A stretch of DNA of 46,350 nt from Gammaproteobacteria bacterium (GTDB taxonomy: Bacteria > Pseudomonadota > Gammaproteobacteria > SZUA-229). Of this stretch, positions 32,615 through 37,152 are shown one piece after another. The notes under the pieces were generated by a model that worked only from the letters and a program-made list of their open reading frames with translations, was not told the DNA's origin and made no database searches. Positions within the stretch are counted from its first letter, which is position 1, and every line of letters starts with the position of its first letter. The DNA lies in NCBI GenBank assembly GCA_029881035.1, contig JAOUNI010000018.1:1-46350 (forward strand). The letters run 5' to 3'. The translations under genes and the position numbers were made by a program.

Positions 32615-34852
32615 TTAAAAAGTATCGTAAGGATCGACGTCAATCGACCAGCGAACCTGCTTGGCGCTTTTTAGCTGCTGTAGCTGTGGCAGCCACTGGC
32701 GTAGCAACTGGTGCAGGGCTTTGCGGTCGCTGGACTGCAGCATGGTCTGGGTACGGAAACGACCGGCGCGTTTTTCCATCGGCGCCGGCCAGGGGCCAAA
32801 GACATCGACGCCGTTGGCGTTGTACCGGTTCGCTAATTCGCGCGCCTCGGTCATGAACTGTATGCCCAGTTCTTTTCTGATCGCGCCGCAGCGCAGAATC
32901 ACCAGATGACGGTGCGGTGGGAAGCCGGCCTGCTGGCGTTCGAACAGCGCCGCTTCGGCGAATTTTTCGTAACCCTTGTGCAACAGCGTCTGCAGCAGCG
33001 GGTGATCGGGGTGGTGGGTCTGGATCAGCACCTCGCCGGGTTTATCGGCGCGTCCGGCTCGCCCGGAAACCTGGATGATGAGCTGGGCCAGGTGTTCGGC
33101 GGCGCGAAAATCGGCGCTATACAGAGCCTGATCGGTATCGAGCACACCGACCAGCGTGACATTGGGGAAGTCGTGACCCTTGGCCAGCATCTGCGTACCC
33201 ACCAGAATACTGGCGCCGCCGGCATGCGCCTGTTGCAGCTTGTCTTCGAGTGCGCCCTTGCGCCGGGTGGTGTCGCGGTCGATGCGGTTGATGTGCACAT
33301 CGGGAAATCGTTCGGTGAGAAAGTTTTCAATGCGCTCGGTGCCGGTACCGATGGCCAGCAGTTGTTCGCTGCCGCAGTCGCCGCATTTGGTCGGCGAGCG
33401 GGTTTCCGCGCCGCAGTGATGGCAATGCAGCTGATGCTTATGCTTGTGGTAGGTCATATTGGCATCGCAGCGTTTGCAGCGCGTCATCCAGCCGCAATCG
33501 TGGCACATCAATAAAGGAGAAAAACCGCGGCGGTTGAGGAACAGGATGACCTGGTTACCCTGTTGCAGATGCTCATCAATTTTGACCAGCAAGGCCGCTG
33601 ACATACCTTCCTGTATCGGCTGACTGCACATGTCGAGCAGCTGAATGCGGGTGACCGACTGGCTGCGGGCGCGTTGTTTCAGGGGGTGAATCTGGAAGCG
33701 CTGGCGATTCACATTGTGCAGGCTTTCCAGCGAAGGCGTGGCCGAGCCCAGCACCACCGGAATGTTTTCTTTCTGGCTGCGCACCAGCGCCAGGTCGCGC
33801 GCGTTATAGCGGAAACCTTCCTGCTGCTTGTAAGAGCCGTCGTGTTCCTCATCAATAATAATCAGGCCGAGGTCGGGCAGCGGCGTGAAAATCGCCGAGC
33901 GTGTGCCGATCACCAGCCGGGCGTGGCCGATGGCGGCGGCGTGCCAGGCGCTGAAGCGTTGCTGGTCATTCAGGCCGGAATGTAGCACCGCAATTGGGCA
34001 GCCCATGCGCTGCTCGAAGCGTTCGGTGAGCTGCGGAGTCAGGCTGATTTCCGGCACCAGCACCAGCACCTGCTTGCCGCTGGCAATCACCTGCTGGCTC
34101 AGCGCCAGATAGACCTCGGTTTTGCCGCTGCCGGTAATACCGTGTAATAAATGAATGTGGTGCTGATCCAGGTCGTGACCGATCGCCGCAATCGCCTGTT
34201 GCTGTTCCTCGTTTAACAAAGGCGCCTGTGATAAGACAGGCCGGGCGGCGGGCAAACTGGCCTGTTCGGCGCAGGTGACCAGTGCCTTTTCCAGCAAGGC
34301 TTTCATTGCGGGGCGCCAGTTCGGGTGGTTCTCGTTGAGGTAGGCCTCATCGAGCCCATCCGGGTTGTTCAGCAGTATTTGCAGGATGTGTTTCTGTTTG
34401 GCGGCCCGATTCAGACTTTCCAGGTCGCTGGTGGAAACACCGTCGCGGGCAGTCCAGACTTTGATGACCATGGCTGCATCGGTTTTGCCCTGACGCAGCA
34501 GGCCGGGCAGGGCCGCCTGTACGACTTCACCAATCGGGTGCAGATAATAAGCAGCCGCCCAGCGCAGCAGATCCAGAATGCGTGCATCCAGCATCGGCTC
34601 GGTGTCGATCAGCGCCCTGATCGGCTTGAGCTTGCTGAGCGCCAGATCGCTGTGATCGGTCTGTTCAAGAATAACGCCAATGGCAGTGCGGCGGCCAAAT
34701 GGCACTTCAACGCGGCAACCCGGAATGAAACTGTGCTGGCGCAAAGACTCAGGAACTAAATAATCAAAAGCGCCGAATAAAGGAATGGGCACCGCAATCT
34801 TGAGGATTCGTGGTTGAGCGGTGGCGGCTGAAGGTTGAGCTTTGGAATTCAT
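32615..34852 (-). CDS. priA: Primosomal protein N' (replication restart helicase PriA)
   Basis: This is a 745-aa superfamily 2 helicase that reloads the replisome at stalled forks. The Walker A is GITGSGKTEVYLALS, the DEEH box is LIIIDEEHDGSYKQQEGFRY, and the zinc-binding insertion holds eight or more cysteines (CHDCGWMTRCKRCD, CHHCG, KCGDCG). VGTQMLAKGHDFPNVTLVGV and QVSGRAGRADKPG are the later helicase motifs. The ATG at 34852 is preferred over a TTG at 34897. The 5' side is the DnaA-box region. argS and the SPOR gene follow in the same direction. Confidence 0.96.
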   Translation of the reverse strand: MNSKAQPSAATAQPRILKIAVPIPLFGAFDYLVPESLRQHSFIPGCRVEVPFGRRTAIGVILEQTDHSDLALSKLKPIRALIDTEPMLDARILDLLRWAAAYYLHPIGEVVQAALPGLLRQGKTDAAMVIKVWTARDGVSTSDLESLNRAAKQKHILQILLNNPDGLDEAYLNENHPNWRPAMKALLEKALVTCAEQASLPAARPVLSQAPLLNEEQQQAIAAIGHDLDQHHIHLLHGITGSGKTEVYLALSQQVIASGKQVLVLVPEISLTPQLTERFEQRMGCPIAVLHSGLNDQQRFSAWHAAAIGHARLVIGTRSAIFTPLPDLGLIIIDEEHDGSYKQQEGFRYNARDLALVRSQKENIPVVLGSATPSLESLHNVNRQRFQIHPLKQRARSQSVTRIQLLDMCSQPIQEGMSAALLVKIDEHLQQGNQVILFLNRRGFSPLLMCHDCGWMTRCKRCDANMTYHKHKHQLHCHHCGAETRSPTKCGDCGSEQLLAIGTGTERIENFLTERFPDVHINRIDRDTTRRKGALEDKLQQAHAGGASILVGTQMLAKGHDFPNVTLVGVLDTDQALYSADFRAAEHLAQLIIQVSGRAGRADKPGEVLIQTHHPDHPLLQTLLHKGYEKFAEAALFERQQAGFPPHRHLVILRCGAIRKELGIQFMTEARELANRYNANGVDVFGPWPAPMEKRAGRFRTQTMLQSSDRKALHQLLRQWLPQLQQLKSAKQVRWSIDVDPYDTF

Positions 34853-34986
34853 AATGAATATTTCAGCGCCATATAAAGGTAATCGAGAGCGTATCAAAGG
34901 TTTATTCGGGTTCCCGATTCTACTGGAAATTGATGGTAGTGACCGAATGCATTATGGATAAAATAATTGTAGACAGTATTGACAAG

Positions 34987-35020
34987 TGAGTTACCCACAA
35001 ATCCTGTGGATAAGTTTGTG
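34987..35020. repeat. DnaA-box pair module, copy A
   Basis: TGAGTTACCCACA, five bases, TGTGGATAA, then one base and TTTGTG. It is an inverted pair of boxes with 5-base spacing, one perfect. The same module recurs at 35291-35324, 304 bases downstream, in the same orientation. Confidence 0.75.
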
Positions 35021-35290
35021 CGTAAAATATTAGTAAATGCCGTTTGCATAGATTTTTCAAGCAATTGTGAGGTTTTGGTTAAAATTTATACAGGGAATAA
35101 ATAGTAGAATAAACAATTAGTTGCGATTACTGGATCTACTATTATAGTGTTAAATAACAGTGATTCTTAATAAAGCTCGACATGAATCTAGATTGTGTAT
35201 AACTGGATTTACAGTCATCTTGCTTAGCAAATTTTGTTAAGAGTTATTCGAGGAAACGTGCTCTAAGTTGCTAATAATGCCCAAAAAACC

Positions 35291-35324
35291 TGAGTTACCC
35301 ACATTTCTTGTGGATAACTTTGTG
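35291..35324. repeat. DnaA-box pair module, copy B
   Basis: It has the same layout as copy A: TGAGTTACCCACA, five bases, TGTGGATAA, one base, TTTGTG. A third box-like TGTGGATAG follows at once (35321-35329), making a three-box cluster. Apart from the five-base spacer and one base, the two copies are identical over this core. Confidence 0.75.
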
Positions 35325-35689
35325 GATAGGAAAGTTTTTTAGCGCAAAAACAAGTGAAAAAACACTAGTTTTGTTAGATTGGACAAAAAATAACCACTTT
35401 AGATATTGCGTTTAATATCAATTAGTTGCAACTATAAGTACGTTATTATTCGGTGGATAAGTGATTAGGTGGCGGACTATTTTGGGCAATATTAGAAGTT
35501 TATAATTTGATTGTGTACAACTCGTATAAAAGTTGCGAGTCAGAACAATAAGTTAGCTTGATACAGGCTAAGGTGAACGGTGTTAAATGAAGCAAAAAGT
35601 CTGTTATTCTTCGTAGCTGATGAACCAGTCCTGTGCAACTGTCACATTTCAGTCTGATCATTGTCCAGAGGAATAATCAGGATCACACC

Positions 35690-36568
35690 ATGCAGCTTTG
35701 GCGGCACATTGAAAATCATATCGAGCAGAGCACCGGCATGTCGTTTTGTATTGGCGAGAACCGCGGTGTCGGCGGTGGCTGCATCAACGCCAGCTTTCAG
35801 GTGACCGATGGCCAGCTCCGCTATTTCATTAAAACCAACCACCGTCACCATGCTGCCATGTTCGAGGCCGAGGCCGAAGGCCTGCTGGAGATGGCCAACA
35901 GCCGCACCATCAAAGTGCCGCGCCCCATCTGCTATGGCGAACACGGTGAGCAGTGCTATATCGTCATGGAATACCTTGATCTGGCTGGCAGGGGCGACAA
36001 TGCCCTGTTTGGCCGGCAACTCGCCGCCATGCACCAACACATCGCCGACCGCTTCGGCTGGCGCATGGACAACACCATCGGCTCCACGCCCCAGCCCAAT
36101 AACCCGCATCACGACTGGGTCGAATTCTGGCGCAGGGAGCGGCTGGGATTTCAGCTGGAACTGGCCGCCCGTAACGGTTATGGCGGCGAGCTGCAAACTT
36201 TGGGTGAACGCCTGCTGGCCGACTTCCCCGTGCTGTTCAAAAACTACCAGCCCAAAGCCTCTATGCTGCACGGTGATTTATGGATCGGCAACTACGGCGC
36301 GCTGGCCGACGGCACACCAGTGATCTTCGACCCAGCCTTCTATTACGGCGATCGTGAAGCCGAGCTGGCCATGACCACCTTATTCGGCAGCTTCAGCCGT
36401 GATTTCTACGTCGCTTACAACGAAGTCTGGCCACTCGATGATGGCTATCCAGTACGTCGCACTTTCTACAATATCTACCACATCATCAACCACACCAATC
36501 TGTTTGGGGGTGGTTACCACGGCCAGGCGATTGGCATGATCGAGCAGGTGCTGGCAGAGATAAAATAA
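35690..36568 (+). CDS. Fructosamine-3-kinase family protein
   Basis: This is a 292-aa aminoglycoside-phosphotransferase-fold kinase. Landmarks are GENRGVGGGCINASF, FIKTNHRH (Lys of the ATP site), FEAEAEGLLEM, the catalytic LHGDLWIGNYG and the metal-binding DPAFYYGDREAELAM. The family phosphorylates sugar adducts on proteins or related substrates, so their removal can follow; the bacterial substrate is often ribulosamine. The ATG at 35690 has AGGA at 7 bases; earlier in-frame sequence falls inside the DnaA-box region and looks non-coding. The gene is visibly richer in G and C than the genes after it. Confidence 0.92.
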   Translation: MQLWRHIENHIEQSTGMSFCIGENRGVGGGCINASFQVTDGQLRYFIKTNHRHHAAMFEAEAEGLLEMANSRTIKVPRPICYGEHGEQCYIVMEYLDLAGRGDNALFGRQLAAMHQHIADRFGWRMDNTIGSTPQPNNPHHDWVEFWRRERLGFQLELAARNGYGGELQTLGERLLADFPVLFKNYQPKASMLHGDLWIGNYGALADGTPVIFDPAFYYGDREAELAMTTLFGSFSRDFYVAYNEVWPLDDGYPVRRTFYNIYHIINHTNLFGGGYHGQAIGMIEQVLAEIK

Positions 36569-36696: not shown

Positions 36697-37152
36697 ATGA
36701 TGAATGACAAGCGATTTCTGGAAATAATCGATTCTACGCCACTAGTTTCTCTTGATTTAATTCTTGAAGACCGTGATGGAAAAGTATTGCTTGGTAAACG
36801 AGTTAATCGCCCTGCTCAGGGATTTTGGTTTGTACCGGGTGGCAGAATTCGAAAAAATGAAAAGTTGGCTGATGCAATCAAAAGAATTTCTTTAGCTGAG
36901 TTGGGTACTGCAATACCAATTTCTGATGCCTCATTATTAGGTGCGTTTGATCACATATATAGTGACAATTATTTTGGAGAAGAAGGTATAAATACACATT
37001 ATGTTGTATTGGCTTATAAGGTTAATGTAAGAGGTGGTTTAGAAATGGTGCCTGATAGCCAACATTCTGAAATAAAATGGTGGTCGAAACAGGATCTGCT
37101 AGATAGTCACGATGTTCACAGGAATACAAAAGCATACTTTACGGGCGCATAA
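36697..37152 (+). CDS. gmm: GDP-mannose mannosyl hydrolase-like NUDIX protein
   Basis: This 151-aa NUDIX-family protein has the modified box of Gmm: FVPGGRIRKNEKLADAIKRI followed by SLAELG, where the usual REXXEE is reduced. The TPLVSLDLILEDRDGKVLLG start and FDHIYSDNYFG are also Gmm-like. Gmm hydrolyses GDP-mannose or GDP-glucose and usually sits in O-antigen or colanic acid loci; no such genes are near here. AGGA precedes the ATG at 36697 by about 14 bases. AT-rich codon use differs from the GC-richer gene upstream, which may reflect a separate origin. Confidence 0.82.
   Translation: MMNDKRFLEIIDSTPLVSLDLILEDRDGKVLLGKRVNRPAQGFWFVPGGRIRKNEKLADAIKRISLAELGTAIPISDASLLGAFDHIYSDNYFGEEGINTHYVVLAYKVNVRGGLEMVPDSQHSEIKWWSKQDLLDSHDVHRNTKAYFTGA

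Follow-up and report, generated by a model that had tools for sequence, protein, structure and literature searches.

On its sequence features, the gap between priA and a fructosamine kinase family gene is likely a tandem, priA-linked DARS-type locus that regenerates ATP-DnaA. This reading is preferred because the geometry of the box cores, the fixed Fis- and IHF-type sites, the profile search, the conservation in the family, the partner proteins and the flat GC skew agree with each other. Control of priA by DnaA, or titration of DnaA, may add to the DARS role. The window (the whole stretch of DNA analysed, 46,350 nucleotides) is contig C24 of a 2.69-Mb gammaproteobacterial draft genome consisting of 99 contigs. 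The gap (34853-35689) is about 838 bp long, is 66% AT and is flanked by divergent genes. All features are listed in Table 1.

Three perfect and seven one-mismatch DnaA boxes were found in the gap, while 1000 dinucleotide shuffles gave means of 0.065 perfect and 1.55 one-mismatch boxes and a maximum total of 6. The paired unit TTACCCACA-N5-TGTGGATAA occurs twice, 304 bp apart and preceded by GAG in both copies, and these two are the only zero-mismatch occurrences when the whole genome was searched. The AT-rich gap beside priA, the cluster of boxes and the duplicated pair had all been described in an earlier note made from the same DNA, and they are confirmed here. It had overlooked that the boxes at 35017 and 35321 are the third boxes of the two units, and that Fis- and IHF-type sites follow both units at the same distances.

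DARS is defined by three DnaA boxes with box I opposed to boxes II and III, and the spacings are equal in DARS1 and DARS2 (PMC5742627; PMC8682772). The DnaA molecules on boxes I and II meet head to head, and ADP is released (PMC5742627; PMC8682772). In MG1655, the DARS1 core reads TTATCCACT-ATTCC-TGTGGATAA-CCA-TGTGTATTA and the DARS2 core reads TTATTCACC-TTTTC-TGTGGATAG-AGT-TGTGAAGAA. Base-by-base comparison with them showed the same spacings of 5 and 3 bp in both window cores, as the third box lies 3 bp beyond each paired unit. Each module extends over about 135 bp, with a putative Fis site and then a putative IHF site following the core. When the cores are excluded, modules A and B resemble each other mainly at the +86 and +120/121 elements. 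Core A starts 139 bp from the priA ATG, on its upstream side.

Table 1. Features of the priA-fructosamine kinase gap and its neighbours (window coordinates; offsets are counted from the core).
Feature	Position	Strand	Remarks
priA	32615..34852	-	start 34852; left neighbour; TIGR00595, NF004067
Perfect DnaA boxes TTATNCACA	35005, 35194, 35309	-	same strand for all three
One-mismatch DnaA boxes	34953, 34991, 35017, 35295, 35321, 35452, 35512		
Single one-mismatch DnaA box TTATCCATA	34953..34961	-	
Core A, DARS-type	34991..35025	+	box I TTACCCACA 34991-34999 (+), N5, box II TGTGGATAA 35005-35013 (-), N3, box III TGTGCGTAA 35017-35025 (-); box I opposed to II and III; model match 34990-35124
Putative Fis site GGTTAAAATTTATAC	35077..35091	.	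consensus 15-mer; +86 from core A
Putative IHF site AAACAATTAGTTG	35111..35123	+	1 mismatch to consensus; +120 from core A
Single perfect DnaA box TTATACACA	35194..35202	-	between modules A and B
Core B, DARS-type	35295..35329	+	box I TTACCCACA 35295-35303 (+), N5, box II TGTGGATAA 35309-35317 (-), N3, box III TGTGGATAG 35321-35329 (-); box I opposed to II and III; model match 35294-35429
Putative Fis site GGACAAAAAATAACC	35381..35395	.	consensus 15-mer; +86 from core B
Putative IHF site TATCAATTAGTTG	35416..35428	+	exact consensus; +121 from core B; register retained by most members of the family
Single one-mismatch DnaA box TTATCCACC	35452..35460	-	past module B
Single one-mismatch DnaA box TTGTACACA	35512..35520	-	conserved in family
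Fructosamine kinase family gene	35690..36568	+	start 35690; right neighbour; PF03881; kept in family

A profile HMM (R1) was trained on 42 loci of other families, none of them from the family of the window, and was searched against the whole 2.7-Mb genome. Three modules were found, and no other independent match appeared below E 1. Module B scored 62.3 bits (E 9.7e-17) and module A scored 53.1 bits (E 6.5e-14); apart from the three modules there were only weak matches, on the complementary strand at these cores. The third module is a single one in the metH-uup gap of another contig (C37:44538-44673, L013:14538-14673) and has the best score of the genome (E 4.5e-18); the uup product is an ABC-F ATPase. 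With a flank model lacking the core, the two window modules came out at the top of all positions (28.6 and 18.8 bits versus 11.5).

Both modules are kept in all of the 15 family loci searched. Some family members have lost box I of module A, with the rest of the module retained, which counts against the DARS reading. An IHF-type site with at most one mismatch lies exactly at +121 of core B in 11 of 17 family loci (never more than 3 in shuffles), and an exact Fis consensus lies at +86 in 10 of 17 (never more than 2 in shuffles), although these loci are related and the counts are thus not independent. For this reason, the offsets in other families are the stronger evidence. Two further blocks of the gap were noticed in the family comparison. 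A short block, GATTCTACTGG, is conserved across the family upstream of the priA start (window 34900-34930), and a near-palindromic, family-specific block, CTACTATTATAGTG, lies between the modules (35136..35149) and contains a TATAAT on the minus strand, which is possibly a promoter element of priA.

The wider survey covered 80 genomes, one each from 80 other gammaproteobacterial families. The three-box core (with at most two mismatches) was present in 72 of them, while a reversed control pattern was present in none. Forty-two loci, near priA and elsewhere, were aligned; since they were selected by the core, conservation of the core is by construction, but that of the flanks is not. The G of the +86 element is invariant among them, and 90% conservation is reached by the C paired with it and by the CA and TT of the IHF site. 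Across these other families, as in both modules of the window's own family, a Fis-type site at +86 and an IHF-type site between +119 and +122 are seen again far more often than in shuffles. At E ≤1e-4, at least one module was detected by the HMM in 292 of 398 Pseudomonadota genomes, and modules are also present in Pseudomonadota outside Gammaproteobacteria. The usual number is one to three per genome; G181, G171, G122 and G094 have 7-9 DARS-type cores or modules each. One strong module match in another species adjoins a UvrB gene, the product of which is 82% identical to E. coli UvrB.

The recurrent neighbour raises the question of whether the gap serves as a DnaA operator of priA, with DnaA at core A repressing or timing PriA synthesis in the way of DARS1 and uvrB. 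In at least 25 of the 77 families in which priA was located, a core was found 16-195 bp upstream of the gene (distances running from the PriA match, not the start codon), with the same orientation in all 25; the minus-strand TATAAT between the modules fits such a function as well. However, in many loci a complete module with its +86 and +120 sites is found away from priA, as is the one in the metH-uup gap of this same genome, and 443 bp separate module B from priA. An opposed box I with fixed Fis and IHF sites would also be superfluous for a pure operator. We regard this explanation as unlikely, and it may coexist with the DARS role; that priA transcription is directly affected is plausible and would not contradict that role.

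A datA-like site or plain titration, in which the boxes and IHF sites would store DnaA or promote ATP hydrolysis and so lower initiation, is less probable again. E. coli datA likewise combines several DnaA boxes with an IHF site, in the order box 2, IHF site, box 3 and without an opposed box I, and the gap has ten boxes within about 570 bp, with boxes on both sides of the putative IHF site at 35416. However, datA is without the DARS core and has the opposite effect on DnaA, and what defines DARS and not datA is the opposed box I with spacings of 5 and 3, present in both modules. The model, run on selected MG1655 loci, gave a weak and partial match to the datA region (14.5 bits), which speaks somewhat for this reading, but it scored DARS1 far higher (33.9 bits, E 3e-9). 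The DARS2 core was found at E 4e-5. A second, degenerate module was also detected in the DARS2 region (L129:642-783, E 0.002). The E. coli priA gap was examined for the three-box core, and none was found there.

The earlier note had proposed the chromosomal origin as a candidate, and had named the minimum of the GC skew and the location of dnaA with its boxes as checks. A cluster of boxes in AT-rich DNA between divergent genes is indeed what suggests an oriC. However, the skew is +0.126 on the left of the gap and +0.126 on the right, without change of sign. In contrast, it turns from -0.052 to +0.139 at dnaA-dnaN on contig C96, where the cumulative minimum lies at 37,065 and the dnaA-dnaN gap holds four DnaA boxes of its own. 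This contig carries rpmH, dnaA, dnaN, recF and gyrB (named from their translations, with DnaA confirmed by a separate search). The same module also occurs at least twice in many genomes and is of the known DARS type. An origin at the priA gap was rejected and is given very little probability, because of the skew, which does not change there but does so at dnaA-dnaN, and because of the box cluster linked to dnaA. The gap is non-coding and intergenic, as a DARS would be, and the indicators of oriC are on another contig. The note had also mentioned a DnaA-controlled or titrating site, which comes closer; more exactly, the gap matches a DARS in two tandem copies. A relative assembled as one contig (G031) was considered for placing the locus relative to oriC and was set aside, since the scrambled GC skew of its contig makes it unsuitable for arguments on position; it is probably stitched from pieces. 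That the inverted repeat of boxes I and II is an intrinsic terminator or an RNA hairpin is hardly credible, since core B does score as terminator-like on the minus strand but core A does not, conservation extends to the third box and to the sites at distances of 86 and 120 bp, module A loses the box I arm alone in part of the family, and an RNA element was rejected with pair covariation almost nil and no match in Rfam.

The genome encodes DnaA, Hda, IhfA, IhfB and Fis, with the Fis match just above its cut-off (99.5 versus 99 bits). DnaA residues R227, L290, R399 and T435, which are reported as needed at DARS, are all kept, and the cognate DnaA residues expected with a DARS occur together with IHF and Fis. 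The +86 element fits Fis but may bind another protein, because modules occur outside Gammaproteobacteria, where Fis may be absent. By analogy with the biochemistry of E. coli DARS, ADP-DnaA on boxes I and II would meet head to head, IHF and Fis would bend the DNA and stabilise the complex, and ADP would leave, so that the freed DnaA could rebind ATP. The level of ATP-DnaA would then rise ahead of the next initiation at oriC, beside dnaA on the other contig. Two modules in one locus would probably provide more capacity or separate regulation, comparable to the long DARS2 and the short DARS1.

DARS-like sequences occur in many proteobacteria according to a review (PMC10380432), and a second review describes the core-IHF-Fis spacing of DARS2 as shared by species close to E. 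coli (PMC5742627). No priA-linked or tandem DARS was reported in the literature searched, the scope of which did not include the original DARS papers. Control by DARS has so far been worked out almost entirely in E. coli. A module found across the phylum (292 of 398 genomes positive with a model trained on 42 loci) provides a means to search for DARS in bacteria without known sites, and through it the flank of DARS1 and the long right-hand half of DARS2 become parts that can be tested. That priA recurs as a neighbour suggests that the control of initiation and replication restart are linked, which is directly testable. More tentatively, and with the balance rather against it, the ancestral DARS across much of Pseudomonadota might have consisted of the core, the +86 element and an IHF site at +120, placed in Gammaproteobacteria often upstream of priA. 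The tandem would then have been fixed in the present family and decayed in E. coli DARS2, and the placement would couple DnaA recharging to the expression of PriA for replication restart.

Compared with known systems, boxes II and III of the window match the double DnaA box, two boxes head to tail 3 bp apart, which ChIP-seq identified as the in vivo preference of DnaA in E. coli (PMC11317965); the double box is without an opposed box I. E. coli DARS1 (101 bp, upstream of uvrB) has the same core as the window modules with a nearly identical spacer (ATTCC versus AATCC), and the +86 element of the wider module can be aligned with the DARS1 flank. It differs in being a single module next to uvrB, and it is reported to be active in vitro without IHF or Fis. 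E. coli DARS2 (455 bp, upstream of mutH) also shares the three-box core and the spacings, uses IHF and Fis sites, and has a DnaA box between the core and a second module. This second module lies 316 bp past the core (L129:652); its box II is intact and an IHF site at +119 matches the consensus exactly, so that DARS2 may itself be a tandem pair of which one copy has decayed. In contrast, both cores are intact in the window, and the neighbours are priA and the fructosamine kinase gene instead of mutH. Putative IHF and Fis consensus sites do stand at defined distances from the window cores, as in DARS2. However, the E. coli order of IHF then Fis is not found, since the window has the Fis-type site at +86 and the IHF-type site at +120/121, while DARS2 has IHF-like sites at +93 and +109 and then a Fis-type site at +145. 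Because this order is opposite, the window locus, as far as sequence comparison goes, is DARS2-like in parts and is not an ortholog of DARS2.
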